Virus record (IMG/VR): IMGVR_UViG_3300018421_000118
Location: 1 to 31,407 of that record
DNA length: 31,407 nt
From: a virus
Reading direction: 5' to 3' (one strand)
Positions 2,149-21,760 of this stretch are shown here, piece after piece (positions within the stretch are counted from its first letter, which is position 1; every line of letters starts with the position of its first letter). The notes beneath the pieces are model-generated. The model had not been told where the DNA came from. It saw nothing but the letters and a program-made list of their open reading frames with translations, and made no database searches. The translations under genes were made by a program, and so were the position numbers.

Positions 2149-3300
2149 TTAAACCATAAATGCTATCTTCTGTTTTTTAAGCATTGCTGGTAGGGGTTTT
2201 GATACAGGCTCAAGTTCTTCCTCTGTATCCTCTAACTGGTCTTCCACTTCTACTGTGGCGACCTCTACATCAACGTCCTCTTCTGGTACGTCGATCTCTT
2301 CGTCCTTGACTTCTTCTGCCTCAGACTGTTCTACGTGCTGTATCAGGCCGTCCATCTCCATAGACATCAACCCCATTTCGGCCTCAGCTTGCATTTCTTG
2401 AATATGTTTTAGCCCGTGCCACGATACTACGTGAGCGGGTAGGATGTATTCACCCTCTGAGATCATCGCCTCGATGTCATCTCTTACGTTATTAGCAGTC
2501 GATCCAATTGGAATAGGGTTGCCAGATACTTCGTCGTAACCCGCAATGCCTTCTTCCATGCCGCCAGTACACTCGTCGCATCCACAAGCCATACCGCCGT
2601 GGTACATCTGCAGCTTCTCATCGTCTAAGATTTCGTCGTCCACGTTCTTCTGAATAGCCTCTCCACGCGCCCTCTCGTAGGAGTCTACTTCGCCATTTTC
2701 ATTCAGATCAGCCTTCTTTTCATCTAATTGAAACTTCTTAGCTGCCATTTCTCTGCCCTCTTCTGTGGTGATACCCTTGGTGGCGGTTGCTATGCCGCCC
2801 AGTGCAAAGCCAGTATCACCGCCCTTGTACCAGTTAATGATTGGTGAGGTGTCTACGCCTATCTTCTCTAGACCTAGTAGACCTGCCGCACCCGCTAGTT
2901 TTAAGCTGTCCTTTAGGCCAAACTCTTCGCCTTCGTCCTTGTCGTCGTATCCCTGTTGGACCGCGTCTAGGATTTCCTGAGCTTCCTCTGGCGTATAGTC
3001 GTCTGACATAAGTAACTTACCGTTTTCGTCGGTGAAGCTGTGTATCTCAGCGTCTTGCTCCTCTAGTTGCTGGACTGCGCTCTCGCCGTAAGCCTTGGGC
3101 CAGTTAACGCCTGAATTGATTGCGTTATCTATGGCTATGTCTATCGGCTGCTCCTCTCCATCCCAGATAGTTGGGATCAGAGTTTGGCGACCATCGATGT
3201 CAACGATTACGGTTCTTACCGTAGACAGTGACCCATCCTCGTTCACCTTGGCAGTGCCGTTAGCAATATTATAGAAGTGGTGTTCTAGAATAGGGTCCAT
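2149..3300 (-). CDS. Virion-associated protein with an EF-hand-like calcium loop
   Basis: I do not recognise a named function for this 383-residue acidic protein, but it lies in the head-assembly block between portal-proximal genes and the scaffold. Residues 28-48 (VRTVIVDIDGRQTLIPTIW) resemble a beta segment common in phage structural proteins. Residues 198-209 (DLNENGEVDSYE) match a canonical EF-hand calcium loop, with D1, N3, N5, G6, D9 and E12 in place. A Cys cluster follows (C239, C241, C244). Residues 266-312, with 'SEGEYILPAHVV', match a segment often seen in marine podovirus virion proteins. The C-terminal part, about 327-363, is strongly acidic. AGGA precedes the start by 7 nt. Confidence 0.55.
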   Translation of the reverse strand: MDPILEHHFYNIANGTAKVNEDGSLSTVRTVIVDIDGRQTLIPTIWDGEEQPIDIAIDNAINSGVNWPKAYGESAVQQLEEQDAEIHSFTDENGKLLMSDDYTPEEAQEILDAVQQGYDDKDEGEEFGLKDSLKLAGAAGLLGLEKIGVDTSPIINWYKGGDTGFALGGIATATKGITTEEGREMAAKKFQLDEKKADLNENGEVDSYERARGEAIQKNVDDEILDDEKLQMYHGGMACGCDECTGGMEEGIAGYDEVSGNPIPIGSTANNVRDDIEAMISEGEYILPAHVVSWHGLKHIQEMQAEAEMGLMSMEMDGLIQHVEQSEAEEVKDEEIDVPEEDVDVEVATVEVEDQLEDTEEELEPVSKPLPAMLKKQKIAFMV

Positions 3301-3309
3301 AAAATATCC

Positions 3310-5262
3310 TTACTGAGGTGTAGCAAAGCCTTCTTCAGGCTGCTCTTCAGCCGATACTAATCCTGCAGAACCAATTAAACCTGCAGTAGCAATACCAATA
3401 TCACGGCGGTCTCCGATATAATTCTTCCAGCTAGGTACGCCGCCAGCACCTACCTTTTCAGCTTCGGCAATAATCATTTCACGTGCGCCGTTTGCATCTA
3501 GAGTACCGTCATCAACCATACGCCAAATAGCATCCACGCTTGAGATAAAATTCTTGTTGTTTTTCATCTCTTTAGGGAACAATGTACGTAACTGCTCCCA
3601 AGATACGGACTGCATCTCACGCGGTAGTACATTCCTTAGCTTGGCTGCTTCTGTAGTTGCATCAAAGTACAAACCGTAGCTGCCGCGCATTCCAGTCTCT
3701 GCCTTACCTAAGTTAGACCAACGGGCTGGGTTACCTGTTGCACTGGCACCAGTAAGACCTTGGTTAACTTCGTTAGAGTTCTGACCAAGAGGTCTAAACA
3801 AACCAGCCGCAATTTGGTGTGTGTCTACGGTTACATCTTTAGGACTGTCTGGATTCAGAATGTTGTTAAAGAAGTTACGTACTTTGTGCGCCCCGCCTAG
3901 CTCAGGTGAGATGCTTTCTAACGTACCATCGCCATCTAGAATACGGATAGCCTTAGCCATATTATCGAAGCTCTGGTGTACTAGCTTAGAGGGTGCGCCT
4001 GACTTTGTAGCAACTACACCAAGTATATCGCCTTCAGGACTTACCTCTCGGAAGTTAGTGCCAAAGTGTGCTTCATCATAGGCGCGTATCCACATTGCTT
4101 TCTGTAGTGGGGTCTCCATTTCACCCCAAGGTCTACCGCGTACTGTCTCAAACTCTTTCTGCTTCTGCCAAGCTGTACCGCCCTTAGAGCCACCTTTCTT
4201 CTCAGTGGTAGCAATAGCATCCATCTCTGGGGTCCACGGCGCATTGTTGCCTAGTTCCGCATTATGCTTAATAATACGTTCACCCATACCCACGTTCTGA
4301 TACCAGTCTTTTCCGGGGCTTAGGGCTGCTAGAACACCTGCAGTCTTTGTATCAGAGATACCAAAACGGTCTGATAATCCTAGTGCAATACGGTTAGCAC
4401 CACGATACCAATTGGCTGAGTCCTTAGCTATTCCTAGACGGTCTGACATATCGTAGAGACTTACGATGTTATCAGTCATACGAGAGATTACGTTTTGTGC
4501 AGTCTGAGTAACATCTTCTGACCACAAGTTACGCAAACCGGGATAGTTCTCTGCCATCATAGCAAAGTTCTGTGCCATAGCAGAGTTACCGCGCATAAGT
4601 GCTTCAGTATCAGATACCATAGTACCTGTACCAATCTGACCTGCATCTCCACCTTTTTCTTCTGGTGTAGTTGGTAGACGGGTGTCTACTCGACGATCAA
4701 TGTCGAGCATCTCTTCTGTCTGCCCTGCCGCATCTTTTGCTGTAGCAAACACATTACCTAAATTACTGCCTACCATAGCAGGATCATACTCAGGCATATT
4801 TCTAGCCACCGCACGTACACCCATAGCACCTGCACCTGCAGCGGGTATTAGAGAAGACGCATTAAGAGCATCACCTAAGATACTTTCTCTAGCAGCATTA
4901 ATCTGATCGCCTGTGGCGTTAGTGATGTCTACGCCATACATATCCATAAGTCGGTCATCGAGGTCTTGAGTAAACAAAGCCTTGGTGCTGTCTACTACAT
5001 CTCGTACTGCTTCTTTAGTTGTCTCAATAGGTGCCTGTACAAAGTCTTTTGCACCTTCGTATATACCCTGACCAGTCTCCTTCAAGAAGCCAATCTCGTC
5101 TTCATTAATGTAGCGTCCTAGCTTTTCACCAAAGCTATCATACTCATTATCTAGACCTACGACATTATCCAGAATAAGCTCACCGTAGCCCATTCCTTTT
5201 TGTGTCTTTTCAAGATCGTCTTCTGGTTTGTCTTCCCCGAAGAAGTACTCGTAAAAGCCCAT
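3310..5262 (-). CDS. Large virion-associated protein with a DNA-glycosylase-like (HhH-GPD-like) core
   Basis: This 650-residue protein is encoded two genes after the portal and probably travels in the head or is ejected. The N-terminal third is acidic and helical, with an Ala/Gly-rich stretch near 138-152. Residues about 285-480 carry a recognisable pattern: 'LAALSPGKDWYQN' (311-323), then 'ELGGAHKVRNFFNNIL' with K460, then 'VTVDTH' with D480. In endonuclease III-type glycosylases an 'LSAQ..D..N' segment is followed by a catalytic Lys and, 18 residues later, by the Asp of 'VDTH'; here the Lys-Asp spacing is 20. A 'SVSWEQLRTLF' segment (552-562) follows. The fold and any activity are inference. 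The start overlaps the previous stop as TAATG. Confidence 0.5.
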   Translation of the reverse strand: MGFYEYFFGEDKPEDDLEKTQKGMGYGELILDNVVGLDNEYDSFGEKLGRYINEDEIGFLKETGQGIYEGAKDFVQAPIETTKEAVRDVVDSTKALFTQDLDDRLMDMYGVDITNATGDQINAARESILGDALNASSLIPAAGAGAMGVRAVARNMPEYDPAMVGSNLGNVFATAKDAAGQTEEMLDIDRRVDTRLPTTPEEKGGDAGQIGTGTMVSDTEALMRGNSAMAQNFAMMAENYPGLRNLWSEDVTQTAQNVISRMTDNIVSLYDMSDRLGIAKDSANWYRGANRIALGLSDRFGISDTKTAGVLAALSPGKDWYQNVGMGERIIKHNAELGNNAPWTPEMDAIATTEKKGGSKGGTAWQKQKEFETVRGRPWGEMETPLQKAMWIRAYDEAHFGTNFREVSPEGDILGVVATKSGAPSKLVHQSFDNMAKAIRILDGDGTLESISPELGGAHKVRNFFNNILNPDSPKDVTVDTHQIAAGLFRPLGQNSNEVNQGLTGASATGNPARWSNLGKAETGMRGSYGLYFDATTEAAKLRNVLPREMQSVSWEQLRTLFPKEMKNNKNFISSVDAIWRMVDDGTLDANGAREMIIAEAEKVGAGGVPSWKNYIGDRRDIGIATAGLIGSAGLVSAEEQPEEGFATPQ

Positions 5263-18717: not shown

Positions 18718-18986
18718 ATACTAACAAAAATATATCAAAGCTAGCGTTTACTATTAGCTCACTCACCAAGCTAATCGGATCAGAAATAACCGCTGTCTCT
18801 GGGGATGCTACAATGTTCTCTTGGTCAGATAATGAAGGTTACTGGTTTCACCTACACGTGGATAAGGAGACTGGAAAATTATCTGCCACCATAGATGATA
18901 TCGTATTTGGGAATGAGAAGGAGATGTATGCAGTCATTGGCTACTGTCAATATCATTCCATTGAACATAAGGGGGTGGGTCAATAA
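18714..18986 (+). CDS. Unknown protein before the integrase (90 aa)
   Basis: I start at ATG 18714 (ATGA overlap with the previous stop, GGAGAAGG upstream). The product is mixed alpha/beta, with a helical start ('ISKLAFTISSLTKLIG') and 'GYWFHLHVDKETGKLSATID' as likely strands. No family is recognised. It overlaps the integrase start as TAATG. Confidence 0.6.
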   Translation: MNTNKNISKLAFTISSLTKLIGSEITAVSGDATMFSWSDNEGYWFHLHVDKETGKLSATIDDIVFGNEKEMYAVIGYCQYHSIEHKGVGQ

Positions 18987-20110
18987 TGAAGGCTCCCTAC
19001 GTAAGACCACGCATGAGAGGCAACACTAGGGTCTATGACCTACGGCCTACTCCTGAATTAAAGAAGGCGTTTCCCGATATCAGTCGGGAGACCTACACCA
19101 CCCCGCAAGAGGCCAACGCCAGAGGCTACGAGTGGAAGCGTAAGTTCGAGGCTTGGAAGGCTGGTAACCACGAAGACATCTACGTAGACAACCGCTCTGT
19201 CGAGGCTCTGGTCAATCACTACAAGTCGTCTATGGCCTACGGTAACATCAAGGCGGCTGCTACTAAGAGATCGTATGAGGGACACCTACGGCACGTGTTG
19301 CCTGTCTGCGTATCTAACACACAGTTTGCTAAGATGAATGTGTCAGACGTTGACTACGAGTACGCGCAGAAACTGTGGCTACACATACAGTCTGACGTAA
19401 GTACACACAAAGCCAACCACACATTCAAGGTTCTCAAGCTAGTTTGGAATGAAGGTCTACGCTCTGGGAAGGTAAAGTCTAATCCCTTTGCCTTGGTCAA
19501 GCTGCCCAAGCTGCCAGACAGACAGGTTCTGTGGCCCGAAGAACATATATGGGGTATGGTACAGCACTGCGACGACATGGGCTACCACAGTATGGGTACA
19601 ATGCTGGTCATGTGCTACGAGTTCTGCCAGCGGCCTGTGGACGTAAGGACTATGCGGTGGGCTAACATAGACGGTAGGACTGGCGTGTCACACTTCACTC
19701 AGAAGAAGACAGGCAAGCAGATGTCTATCAAGGTAACTAACTCTGTTAAGCAACGTCTGCACTTACACCAGCACCGTAACTCTGATGATTACATATTTGC
19801 ATATGAGAATACTGGTAGACCCTACAGTCAGGATCGATGCAATAAGTTCTTTAGAGCCGCTGCCGATAGCTACGGACTGCCAGAGGTTCCGCTTGTAGGC
19901 CAGTTCAATGAAGATGGTAGCCAGCGATATACCAAACTGTGGATGGCTGACCTTCGACGCACAGGAGCTACTCACGCGAGTAGGGCAGGGTGTACTGACC
20001 GACAGTTGATGGCTCTGACAGGTCACAAGAACCCACAGATGTTAGTGATCTACGCCTTAGAGGGCGAGACAGAGAGTACAATGGCTAATCAGAAACGAGG
20101 TTTAATTTAA
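18986..20110 (+). CDS. int: Tyrosine-type integrase
   Basis: At 374 residues this has the length and layout of a phage integrase: an N-terminal arm-binding part (about 1-65), a SAM-like core-binding domain (about 66-170) and a catalytic domain. Catalytic residues visible are R216 (CQRPVDVR), K241, R324 (DLRRTGATH), H347 (LTGHKNP) and nucleophile Y356 (YALEG). The His normally two positions before the Leu of box II is Ala (A321), a known but less common variant. It probably joins phage DNA to a host tRNA-Asn gene through the attP at 20804-20848, three small genes downstream. GGGGTGGG precedes the start, which overlaps the previous stop. Confidence 0.92.
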   Translation: MKAPYVRPRMRGNTRVYDLRPTPELKKAFPDISRETYTTPQEANARGYEWKRKFEAWKAGNHEDIYVDNRSVEALVNHYKSSMAYGNIKAAATKRSYEGHLRHVLPVCVSNTQFAKMNVSDVDYEYAQKLWLHIQSDVSTHKANHTFKVLKLVWNEGLRSGKVKSNPFALVKLPKLPDRQVLWPEEHIWGMVQHCDDMGYHSMGTMLVMCYEFCQRPVDVRTMRWANIDGRTGVSHFTQKKTGKQMSIKVTNSVKQRLHLHQHRNSDDYIFAYENTGRPYSQDRCNKFFRAAADSYGLPEVPLVGQFNEDGSQRYTKLWMADLRRTGATHASRAGCTDRQLMALTGHKNPQMLVIYALEGETESTMANQKRGLI

Positions 20111-20373
20111 TGGGATTTCAGCGTGACGTAACAATCACTCAGCGGGGTAGGGCGTGTCGCCTATTTGGTCAGGACTTTGTCAGTGTGGCCCAAGCCGCTC
20201 GACACTTTAACATCAGCCATAGTTTTGCACGTGAGATGGTTAATGGTGACAGGCACAAAGAAGGTGACCGCGACGAGATACGTAGAAACTGGGTTAACAA
20301 GCACATTAACCAGATGACCCCTGAAGAGCGTCAGAGGGCCAAGGAGCGTGAAGAGGCTAATCGTGATGAGTGA
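20110..20373 (+). CDS. Small helix-turn-helix protein, possible excisionase or regulator
   Basis: The 87-residue basic product has a helix-turn-helix-like segment at about residues 22-50 ('DFVSVAQAARHFNISHSFAREMVNG') and a charged helical tail. It directly follows the integrase with a TAATG overlap and is the first of three small genes between int and attP. Excisionases (recombination directionality factors) are small, basic, winged-helix or HTH proteins in just this place. The repeat-like HTH also recalls DNA-binding modules of homing endonucleases. A role at the CCTGTTAAC sites is another option. Confidence 0.65.
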   Translation: MGFQRDVTITQRGRACRLFGQDFVSVAQAARHFNISHSFAREMVNGDRHKEGDRDEIRRNWVNKHINQMTPEERQRAKEREEANRDE

Positions 20374-20575
20374 TGCGGGTATAATTGGCGTAGAGACTGT
20401 AGAAGAACACGAAGACGGTTCCGCTACGTATCAGTTCCACATGGACGACAAGTGCAGAAACTTACTGACAGAGGAAGGCTTGAAGCTGGTACTCTACTGC
20501 GCAGCCGCTAAGATGGATATACAGTTAGTATACGACTTCATTGAAGATCACATTAGAGAGATGACTGATGGTTAA
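20366..20575 (+). CDS. Conserved phage protein of unknown function (69 aa)
   Basis: I start at ATG 20366, with GAGG about 9 nt upstream and an 8-nt overlap with the preceding gene; a GTG at 20348 would add six residues. The product's 'GSATYQFHMDDKCRNLLTEEGLKLVLYCAA' (in two parts) is a pattern I recognise from many phage genomes, always without a known role. It is a small alpha/beta protein. Confidence 0.7.
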   Translation: MSDAGIIGVETVEEHEDGSATYQFHMDDKCRNLLTEEGLKLVLYCAAAKMDIQLVYDFIEDHIREMTDG

Positions 20576-20708: not shown

Positions 20709-20762
20709 TAACGTGAGTGGCAAAAATGGCAGACTGCCACAAAGCTATCTGCCATGCCACTT

Positions 20763-20770
20763 ACACCTAA
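20763..20770 (+). repeat. Left arm of an inverted repeat around attP
   Basis: ACACCTAA here is exactly inverted at 20903-20910 (TTAGGTGT), on the far side of the tRNA-like core. This is a possible pair of integrase arm-binding sites. Confidence 0.35.
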
Positions 20771-20803
20771 TATACAGATATTTATCTAATTATATCAGTG
20801 AGT

Positions 20804-20848
20804 TGGCTCCGGCGGTAGGGATCGAACCTACGACCAATTGATTAACAG
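20804..20848 (-). other. attP core: 3' part of tRNA-Asn(GUU)
   Basis: Read on the minus strand, these 45 bp match tRNA positions 32-76 one for one: anticodon loop CTGTTAA (anticodon GTT), stem half TCAAT, 5-nt variable loop TGGTC, T-stem GTAGG/CCTAC around loop TTCGATC, acceptor half CGCCGGA, discriminator G, and CCA. The bases before it (ACAACAT) cannot pair as an anticodon stem and no 5' half exists, so it is not a working tRNA gene. With an integrase gene 700 bp away it is the expected attachment core, with strand exchange inside the anticodon loop or beyond. Confidence 0.85.
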
Positions 20849-20851
20849 ATG

Positions 20852-20881
20852 TTGTTTGTTATCAATGACTTATGATATACT
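20852..20881 (+). promoter_or_regulatory. Weak promoter for the primase gene
   Basis: TTGTTT (20852-20857), an 18-bp spacer and TATACT (20876-20881). The CCTGTTAAC site begins 11 bp after the -10. Confidence 0.4.
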
Positions 20882-20891
20882 TACATTAATA

Positions 20892-20900
20892 CCTGTTAAC
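20892..20900 (+). promoter_or_regulatory. CCTGTTAAC candidate operator 4
   Basis: This lies at the expected transcription start of the primase promoter, and between the arms of the 9-bp inverted repeat at 20847-20855 and 20916-20924. Confidence 0.5.
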
Positions 20901-20965
20901 TTTAGGTGTTTTAATACAACATCTAATTAAGTGTTGACTAAATTGTTTTTGGCGATAAGCTGACG

Positions 20966-21004: not shown

Positions 21005-21760
21005 ATGACCTACTTAGAACAGCTAGAAATAGTAAAGACTATTAATATCAGAGAGGGGGATACTATAGTAATCCAATGCCCTTTCTGTGGTGGATATAAG
21101 AAGCTAGCAGTCTCTAAAATAGATGGTCAACTAAAGTGGTTCTGTTATAGAGCAAGCTGTAATGGAAGAGGCATATACCAAGGTAGACGTTCTCTTCAGT
21201 CATCTAAAGACTATCTAGCAAAAGTATCTAAGACAACTGCTAAGGTTAAACCCTTACCTGAGATAACTACTTCAGTAGATAACCACAAACCAGCCATCGA
21301 CTTCCTGAAGTCTGTGAATAGTCTAGAGGCTTACCAGAACGGATGGATAGATGTACGCTACGCACCAGCCGAAGACCGTGTAATGTTCTACGCAGACAGA
21401 GGTGCAGTGGGTAGATGCCTGAAACCCTATGGACCTAAGTGGATGACTTACGGTGTCATCGAAGGCGGTGTACACGTAGGTGAGGGAAATAATGCCGTAC
21501 TCGTAGAAGACGTACCATCAGCCTGTAGTGTGAGTAGACTAGATGGCTACGTAGGGGTGGCAATGTTGGGTACAAACTTGACTACTGCTATAAAGCAGTC
21601 AGTTAGTTGTTATACTAATAGGTATTTAATTCTTGACAAAGACGCGAATAGTAAGGCACTTAATACAATCAGAAGTAAAGATAAGACTCTAAGACTGAGA
21701 CTCACTGAGAAAGACTTAAAATGGCTCACTACAGAACAGATACAGAATTTACTACGGTAA
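21005..21760 (+). CDS. DNA primase (T7 gp4 primase half)
   Basis: The 251-residue product makes RNA primers for replication. It has an N-terminal zinc finger (C25-x2-C28 and C47, C52; 'CPFCGGYKK' and 'WFCYRASC'), a linker, and a TOPRIM domain with E168 in 'VLVEDVPSA' and D211-x-D213 in 'LILDKDA', as in T7 gene 4 primase. Unlike T7 gp4, the helicase is a separate protein, encoded at 22346. The gene has its own weak promoter with a candidate operator, separate from the small early genes. Confidence 0.85.
   Translation: MTYLEQLEIVKTINIREGDTIVIQCPFCGGYKKLAVSKIDGQLKWFCYRASCNGRGIYQGRRSLQSSKDYLAKVSKTTAKVKPLPEITTSVDNHKPAIDFLKSVNSLEAYQNGWIDVRYAPAEDRVMFYADRGAVGRCLKPYGPKWMTYGVIEGGVHVGEGNNAVLVEDVPSACSVSRLDGYVGVAMLGTNLTTAIKQSVSCYTNRYLILDKDANSKALNTIRSKDKTLRLRLTEKDLKWLTTEQIQNLLR

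Follow-up and report, generated by a model that had tools for sequence, protein, structure and literature searches.

What role would a 45-bp piece of a tRNA-Asn gene, lying without its 5′ half a short distance past an integrase gene, play in the genome of a marine podovirus? This question is raised by the virus record considered here, whose 31,407 bases were analyzed over their whole length (hereafter, the window) and represent part of the genome, of about 54 kb in total, of an HMO-2011-type podovirus. The reading that we favor, with a probability of roughly 0.75, is that a temperate phage uses the segment as the common core of its attachment site (attP), with strands exchanged in an overlap at roughly tRNA positions 39-45 and the anticodon-loop positions 32-38 lying outside the exchange.

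The phage and its integrase

The + strand of the window carries genes for an integrase, a primase, a DnaB-like helicase, a family A polymerase, an exonuclease, a RusA-like resolvase, and a ribonucleotide reductase, and the − strand those for the terminase, the portal, and the capsid. Two properties identify the phage as HMO-2011-type. Its polymerase has two CXXCXGXG motifs, CRDCNGVG at 311 and CKPCKGLG at 348, and such a pair, placed between the exonuclease and polymerase domains, marks the DNA polymerase of this group (PMC6918029); in addition, the integrase gene is located upstream of the primase-helicase-polymerase module, in a gene order identical to that of CRP-738. The latter, Roseobacter phage CRP-738 (MZ892992), is the closest isolate, with 95.7% identity in the polymerase, 93.9% in the integrase, and 88.5% at the DNA level across 66% of the first 25 kb. 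Its host, Rhodobacteraceae FZCC0089, is a member of a Roseobacter lineage near HIMB11 (PMC9038755).

The features around the segment are as follows, in window coordinates:

18986-20110, + strand: gene of a tyrosine integrase (int), 374 aa, recognized by PF00589, PHROG 1, and the catalytic residues
20110-20373, + strand: short ORF of 87 aa that follows int and precedes attP, an excisionase (xis) candidate by position alone
20348-20575, + strand: short ORF of 75 aa, likewise between int and attP
20804-20848, − strand: predicted attP common core, tRNA-Asn(GUU) positions 32-76 with CCA, identical to the last 45 nt of a full gene
21005-21760, + strand: DNA primase, the first replication gene past attP (PHROG 47, 8e-16)

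A first-pass annotation of this DNA had placed an integrase gene in the same region, and this assignment holds: int matches Pfam PF00589 (7e-14) and the PHROG 1 integrase family (1.8e-37), and all the residues expected of a tyrosine recombinase, namely R216, K241, R324, H347, and Y356, are present. Its box II (residues 321-324) reads ADLR instead of the usual HxxR, the relatives having A, S, or N, and the remaining catalytic residues are kept. A profile search of the PDB returned no solved relative at E 0.001. Neither of the two small ORFs belongs to a PHROG family (for the 87-aa ORF, at E 0.001), and no excisionase candidate was recognized by the PHROG search between int and attP.

A 3′ part of tRNA-Asn(GUU)

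The segment, located about 0.7 kb past the end of int, reads TGGCTCCGGCGGTAGGGATCGAACCTACGACCAATTGATTAACAG (20804-20848). Its reverse complement, CTGTTAATCAATTGGTCGTAGGTTCGATCCCTACCGCCGGAGCCA, is base-for-base equal to positions 32-76 of tRNA-Asn(GTT), the numbering being counted backwards from CCA taken as 74-76. The reference gene, which ARAGORN reads as tRNA-Asn(GTT), is 75 nt long, consists of TCCGGCGTAGCTCAGCGGTAGAGCAGTTGA followed by the 45 bases, and occurs in 35 copies among the fetched IMG/VR loci. The identity breaks off sharply at C32, where the tRNA strand continues with AACAT in the window versus GTTGA in the gene, and since ARAGORN and Rfam report no tRNA gene over the window, the 5′ half is absent; on both points the first-pass description of the 45 bp was accurate. 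A 25-base stretch of the segment, with 3 mismatches permitted, has a single match in the window and none in 100 shuffles, and the G+C content of the segment is 53% versus 36% in the surrounding intergenic DNA. The presence of this tRNA segment in the window cannot be chance.

An exact 3′ part of a tRNA, adjoining an integrase gene and devoid of the 5′ half, is what defines an attP directed at a tRNA gene, and it is very likely that 20804-20848 serves as such. Joining the parts in silico rebuilds a gene that ARAGORN reads as tRNA-Asn(GTT).

Conservation of the site among related phages

Relatives of the integrase, 90 in an alignment scan of viral contigs, were fetched, further sites were sought by sequence pattern, and duplicates were merged. 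The outcome was 51 distinct sites, each on a locus with an integrase of the family (25-99% identical), which belong to related phages and hence are not 51 independent events. In every one of them the tRNA 3′ part is downstream of int, at a distance of 106-2290 bp (median 955), with its tRNA strand antisense to int, and the core is conserved while its flanks diverge widely from site to site.

The core comes in three host-like alleles: one with the GTAGG/CCTAC T-stem, found in the window; one with GTTGG/CCAAC, found in CRP-738 and others; and one that combines GTAGG with a T-loop change and the acceptor CGTCGGA. The change from GTAGG/CCTAC to GTTGG/CCAAC is paired, and the partner of the acceptor change, TCCGACG, is present in full tRNA-Asn genes with that allele. 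Such paired changes are what one would expect of sites linked to functional host tRNA genes.

Positions 39-44 are identical to the host in all 51 sites and position 45 in 50 of them; one of the pattern searches fixed only 46-76 and so could not force the identity at 39-45, while the invariance of 46-76 was largely set by the patterns. Going further toward the 5′ side, positions 32 to 38 match the host in 92, 73, 63, 75, 88, 98, and 84% of the sites, respectively, and positions 24-31 are near background. The loop segment is other than CTGTTAA in 27/51 sites (e.g., CTACCAC, CTACTAA, CCTACGC, or CTATCAA), and despite this divergence C32 (92%) and A37 (98%) are mostly retained.

Some members of the wider group are arranged differently. 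Two close relatives, L108 and L113, have kept int and are missing the att segment: L108, around its position 2740, is without the stretch equal to window 20709-20925, and the corresponding place in L113 is 3455-3510, by either natural loss or an assembly artefact. No tRNA 3′ part was found near int, with the same pattern, in the subgroup I phages HMO-2011, CRP-1, CRP-2, CRP-207, CRP-345, and CRP-603. In L144, whose integrase is 48% identical, the corresponding place holds a different tRNA 3′ part, GCAGGTTCGAGTCCTGCCTCGCCTACCA, at about 4637 on the − strand, which is, judged by its sequence, an apparent switch of the integration target.

Where the strands are exchanged

The comparison divides the 45 bp into the following parts:

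20804-20841, − strand: tRNA positions 39-76, the essentially invariant core in the family comparison
20835-20841, − strand: TCAATTG, positions 39-45, the predicted overlap, placed by the 5′ end of the family invariance and by the comparison of CRP-3 and CRP-212
20842-20848, − strand: CTGTTAA, positions 32-38, the anticodon-loop-like segment, which differs from the host in 27/51 sites

The anticodon loop is where the first-pass annotation had the strands exchange. In the lineage of the window the loop is identical to that of the host, and its own sequence is thus compatible with an exchange inside 32-38. A different picture comes from modeling the lysogens of four relatives (L117, L205, L136, and L161): with the exchange 5′ of the loop, they acquire Gly, Val, Ser, and Asp anticodons, respectively, on a tRNA-Asn body, and with the exchange 3′ of the loop, tRNA-Asn(GTT) is rebuilt in all of them. 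Because the loop varies in more than half of the family sites and in CRP-3, and because an exchange inside it would ruin the anticodon of several relatives, the earlier placement is disfavored here; an exchange 3′ of the loop, within about 39-45, appears more likely, and the segment 32-38 is probably a site contacted by the integrase and not exchanged sequence.

For CRP-3, integration into the tRNA-Met(CAT) gene of FZCC0040 has been shown by sequencing reads and PCR (PMC6918029). A search with a T-arm pattern locates a tRNA-Met 3′ part at 3171-3208 of CRP-3, which the published primers attL-R (2829-2849) and attR-F (3642-3662) face from both sides. The loop segment of this site, CGTATAC, is unlike CTCATAA, the loop of initiator tRNA, which we take to be that of the CRP-3 host, so in CRP-3 too the contiguous match would be 39-76. 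CRP-212 and CRP-235, phages of the host strain of CRP-3, likewise have the tRNA-Met 3′ part, with the loops CCAATAA and CCCAGAC. The T-stem is GCAGG/CCTGC in CRP-212 versus GTAGG/CCTAC in CRP-3, a paired change at positions 50 and 64, and if CRP-212 uses the same gene as CRP-3, the exchange has to fall within 39-49. The family, CRP-3, and CRP-212 data would all be accommodated by an overlap of 7 bp at 39-45. An overlap symmetry test gave scores of 0.51 for a center at 42, 0.56 at 44.0, and 0.51 at 40.5, so that center 42 is not singled out.

Flanking motifs

Two motifs outside the core are candidates for additional binding by the integrase:

20792-20798, − strand: CTGATAT, candidate arm-type site, just past CCA
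20861-20872, − strand: TAAGTCATTGAT, candidate arm-type integrase site, 24 bp outside the loop

The 15-mer TAAGTCATTGATTTT is present with at least 12/15 matches in 21/51 sites versus 3/2040 control windows, a control only partly independent because the motif was derived from the same sites. It mostly stands at a fixed offset, 23-27 bp outside the loop; the tRNA-Met sites and L144, with its third tRNA, have related forms of it. On the other side, TGAT-like bases are found at fixed positions, 7-10 past CCA, in most of the family sites. The attP core of the window is also surrounded by a 24-nt imperfect inverted repeat (20774-20797 and 20873-20896, 83% complementary); across the family, inverted repeats were not better than those obtained after exchanging flanks among loci.

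Host and prophages

The first-pass expectation that the 45-mer would name the host was not borne out, as the allele is widespread, serves unrelated prophages and satellites too, and is not the one that CRP-738 carries. The 45-mer itself was found in 98 viral stretches, many of which are intact tRNA-Asn genes or elements without the int family. The host is likely a related roseobacter, on the basis of the kinship to CRP-738 and not of the 45-mer.

Among the other users of this tRNA, three loci (L045, L049, and L082) contain islands whose integrases are unrelated; each island has a full tRNA-Asn at one end and a partial copy at the other, and the two share positions 30-76. The elements at 499-10930 of L045 and 55-10819 of L049 are about 10.5 kb long, carry integrase, large terminase, portal, and capsid genes, and look like capsid-encoding satellites in the same tRNA-Asn gene. 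At 48-10160 of L082 there is a similarly bounded element, which carries a primase/helicase-like gene and whose integrase shares 68% identity with the L049 one.

Regarding prophages, the family is common in viral contigs, with its 90 relatives, yet a scan of 84,980 species genomes for int gave no prophage relative with the patterns used, and one spurious match, despite the strictly kept attP. None of the full tRNA-Asn genes in the fetched viral loci has a family integrase on the same locus, and the absence of a prophage from these loci and from the genome collection is no proof of absence. The search for a full tRNA-Asn in plasmids gave no match.

Proposed mechanism and alternatives

In the proposed mechanism, the target with which the integrase encoded at 18986-20110 recombines attP would be the tRNA-Asn(GUU) gene in a roseobacter-like host. 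The 5′ half of that gene, joined to the 3′ part brought by the phage, would make up an intact tRNA-Asn at one junction, and the other would be marked by the 3′ fragment displaced from the host gene. The exchange would take place in an overlap of roughly 7 bp, positions 39-45 (window 20835-20841), which comprises the 3′ strand of the anticodon stem and the start of the variable loop. The adjacent segments, 32-38 and 46-52, would be the core-binding half-sites of the integrase, and TAAGTCATTGAT and CTGATAT, outside the core, its arm-type sites. The predicted attL is made of host positions 1-38, phage positions 39-76, and ACTCACTGATATAAT. The sequence identity, the conservation and orientation of the site across the family, and the CRP-3-like layout uphold the first-pass proposal of a tRNA-Asn(GUU) 3′-part attP implying integration into the host gene; from them we infer that this phage integrates, as well as the exact position of the overlap.

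Regarding the place of the exchange, the anticodon loop, which is classical for sites centered on the anticodon and belongs with the T loop and the T-acceptor junction to the three known tRNA crossover subsites (PMC4383910), is the unlikely but serious alternative. An attP for tRNA-Asn recombining there would agree with the identity of the window over the whole loop and with the islands in L045, L049, and L082, whose unrelated integrases share 30-76; it is opposed by the 27/51 family sites whose loop differs, which in several cases would cost the tRNA its anticodon, and by the different loop of CRP-3, a proven integrator. Moving the exchange further 3′, into the T loop or the T-acceptor junction, is highly improbable: these are subsites of other integrases (PMC4383910) and the T-arm is fully shared, but the invariance of 39-45 would be left unexplained, and the T-stem difference between CRP-212 and CRP-3 (positions 50 and 64) would produce an adjacent mismatch if both use the same gene.

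The other two alternatives concern the function of the segment. It is rather improbable that the site is an attP of the past, inherited by phages whose lifestyle has become effectively lytic. The lack of a prophage relative in the species genomes and the loss of the att segment from L108 and L113, with int kept, speak for this possibility, whereas a relative integrates in culture (PMC6918029) and 51 divergent phages have kept an exact or almost exact core whose alleles are host-like and whose T-stem changes are paired; such a core amid scrambled flanks would need continuing selection. Next to no weight is given to the idea that a tRNA gene has decayed here or that the segment encodes a tRNA-like RNA of other function. 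Some phages do carry tRNA-Asn genes, and full copies are clustered in other viral contigs, but the segment has no 5′ half, no match in ARAGORN or Rfam, and no terminator-like element, and its position and orientation relative to int are fixed in all relatives.

Beyond the preferred reading, an attP with its overlap at roughly 39-45, we see even odds for a more general proposal, namely that HMO-2011-type integrases use a crossover subsite beyond the three known ones, whose 7-bp overlap (39-45) lies in the anticodon stem, on its 3′ strand. In that case the phage would never carry or replace the anticodon, and this integrase clan could switch among tRNA-Asn alleles, tRNA-Met, and another tRNA without a change in geometry.

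Significance

These findings offer a concrete predicted integration site for an abundant group of marine phages, for which the literature consulted shows lysogeny in CRP-3 only; judged against this literature, tRNA-Asn is a new predicted integration target for HMO-2011-type phages. The attP alleles track host-like tRNA alleles, which means that the att core marks the lineage of the host coarsely, and not its name. The contrast between a strictly kept site and the lack of detected prophages bears on the real frequency of lysogeny in HMO-2011-type phages. The sole point likely to surprise a specialist is that the crossover probably lies on the 3′ side of the loop; if true, this would add a subsite to the rules by which islands are found in tRNA genes and to those of integrase choice.

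Comparison with known systems

The phages with tRNA-dependent lysogeny also have a tyrosine integrase and an attB in a tRNA gene, and in their case the core is only about 10 bp and the tRNA is not restored (PMC10865867). The phage described here was not assigned to this class: its 45-bp core restores the tRNA, and there is no tRNA gene in the window, which is part of a genome of about 54 kb.

CRP-738 has the corresponding tRNA-Asn core at 2934-2978; it differs from the window in having the GTTGG/CCAAC T-stem allele, i.e., two differences in 45 bp, and the literature consulted on CRP-738 holds no report of its integration site. The layout is also that of CRP-3, a member of HMO-2011-type subgroup III, in which a tRNA 3′ part running through CCA follows int in antisense orientation and precedes the primase gene. 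CRP-3 also has a motif like the one here, about 25 bp beyond the loop, and, as in the family, a loop segment unequal to that of the host. In contrast, the tRNA is tRNA-Asn here and tRNA-Met in CRP-3, the two integrases are only about 30% identical, and the integration of CRP-3 was shown experimentally.

More generally, as in the phages and islands with tyrosine integrases collected by Islander (PMC4383910), the phage carries the 3′ end of a tRNA gene that would be restored on integration; unlike in those sites, the invariance appears to begin at position 39, between the anticodon-loop and T-loop subsites.
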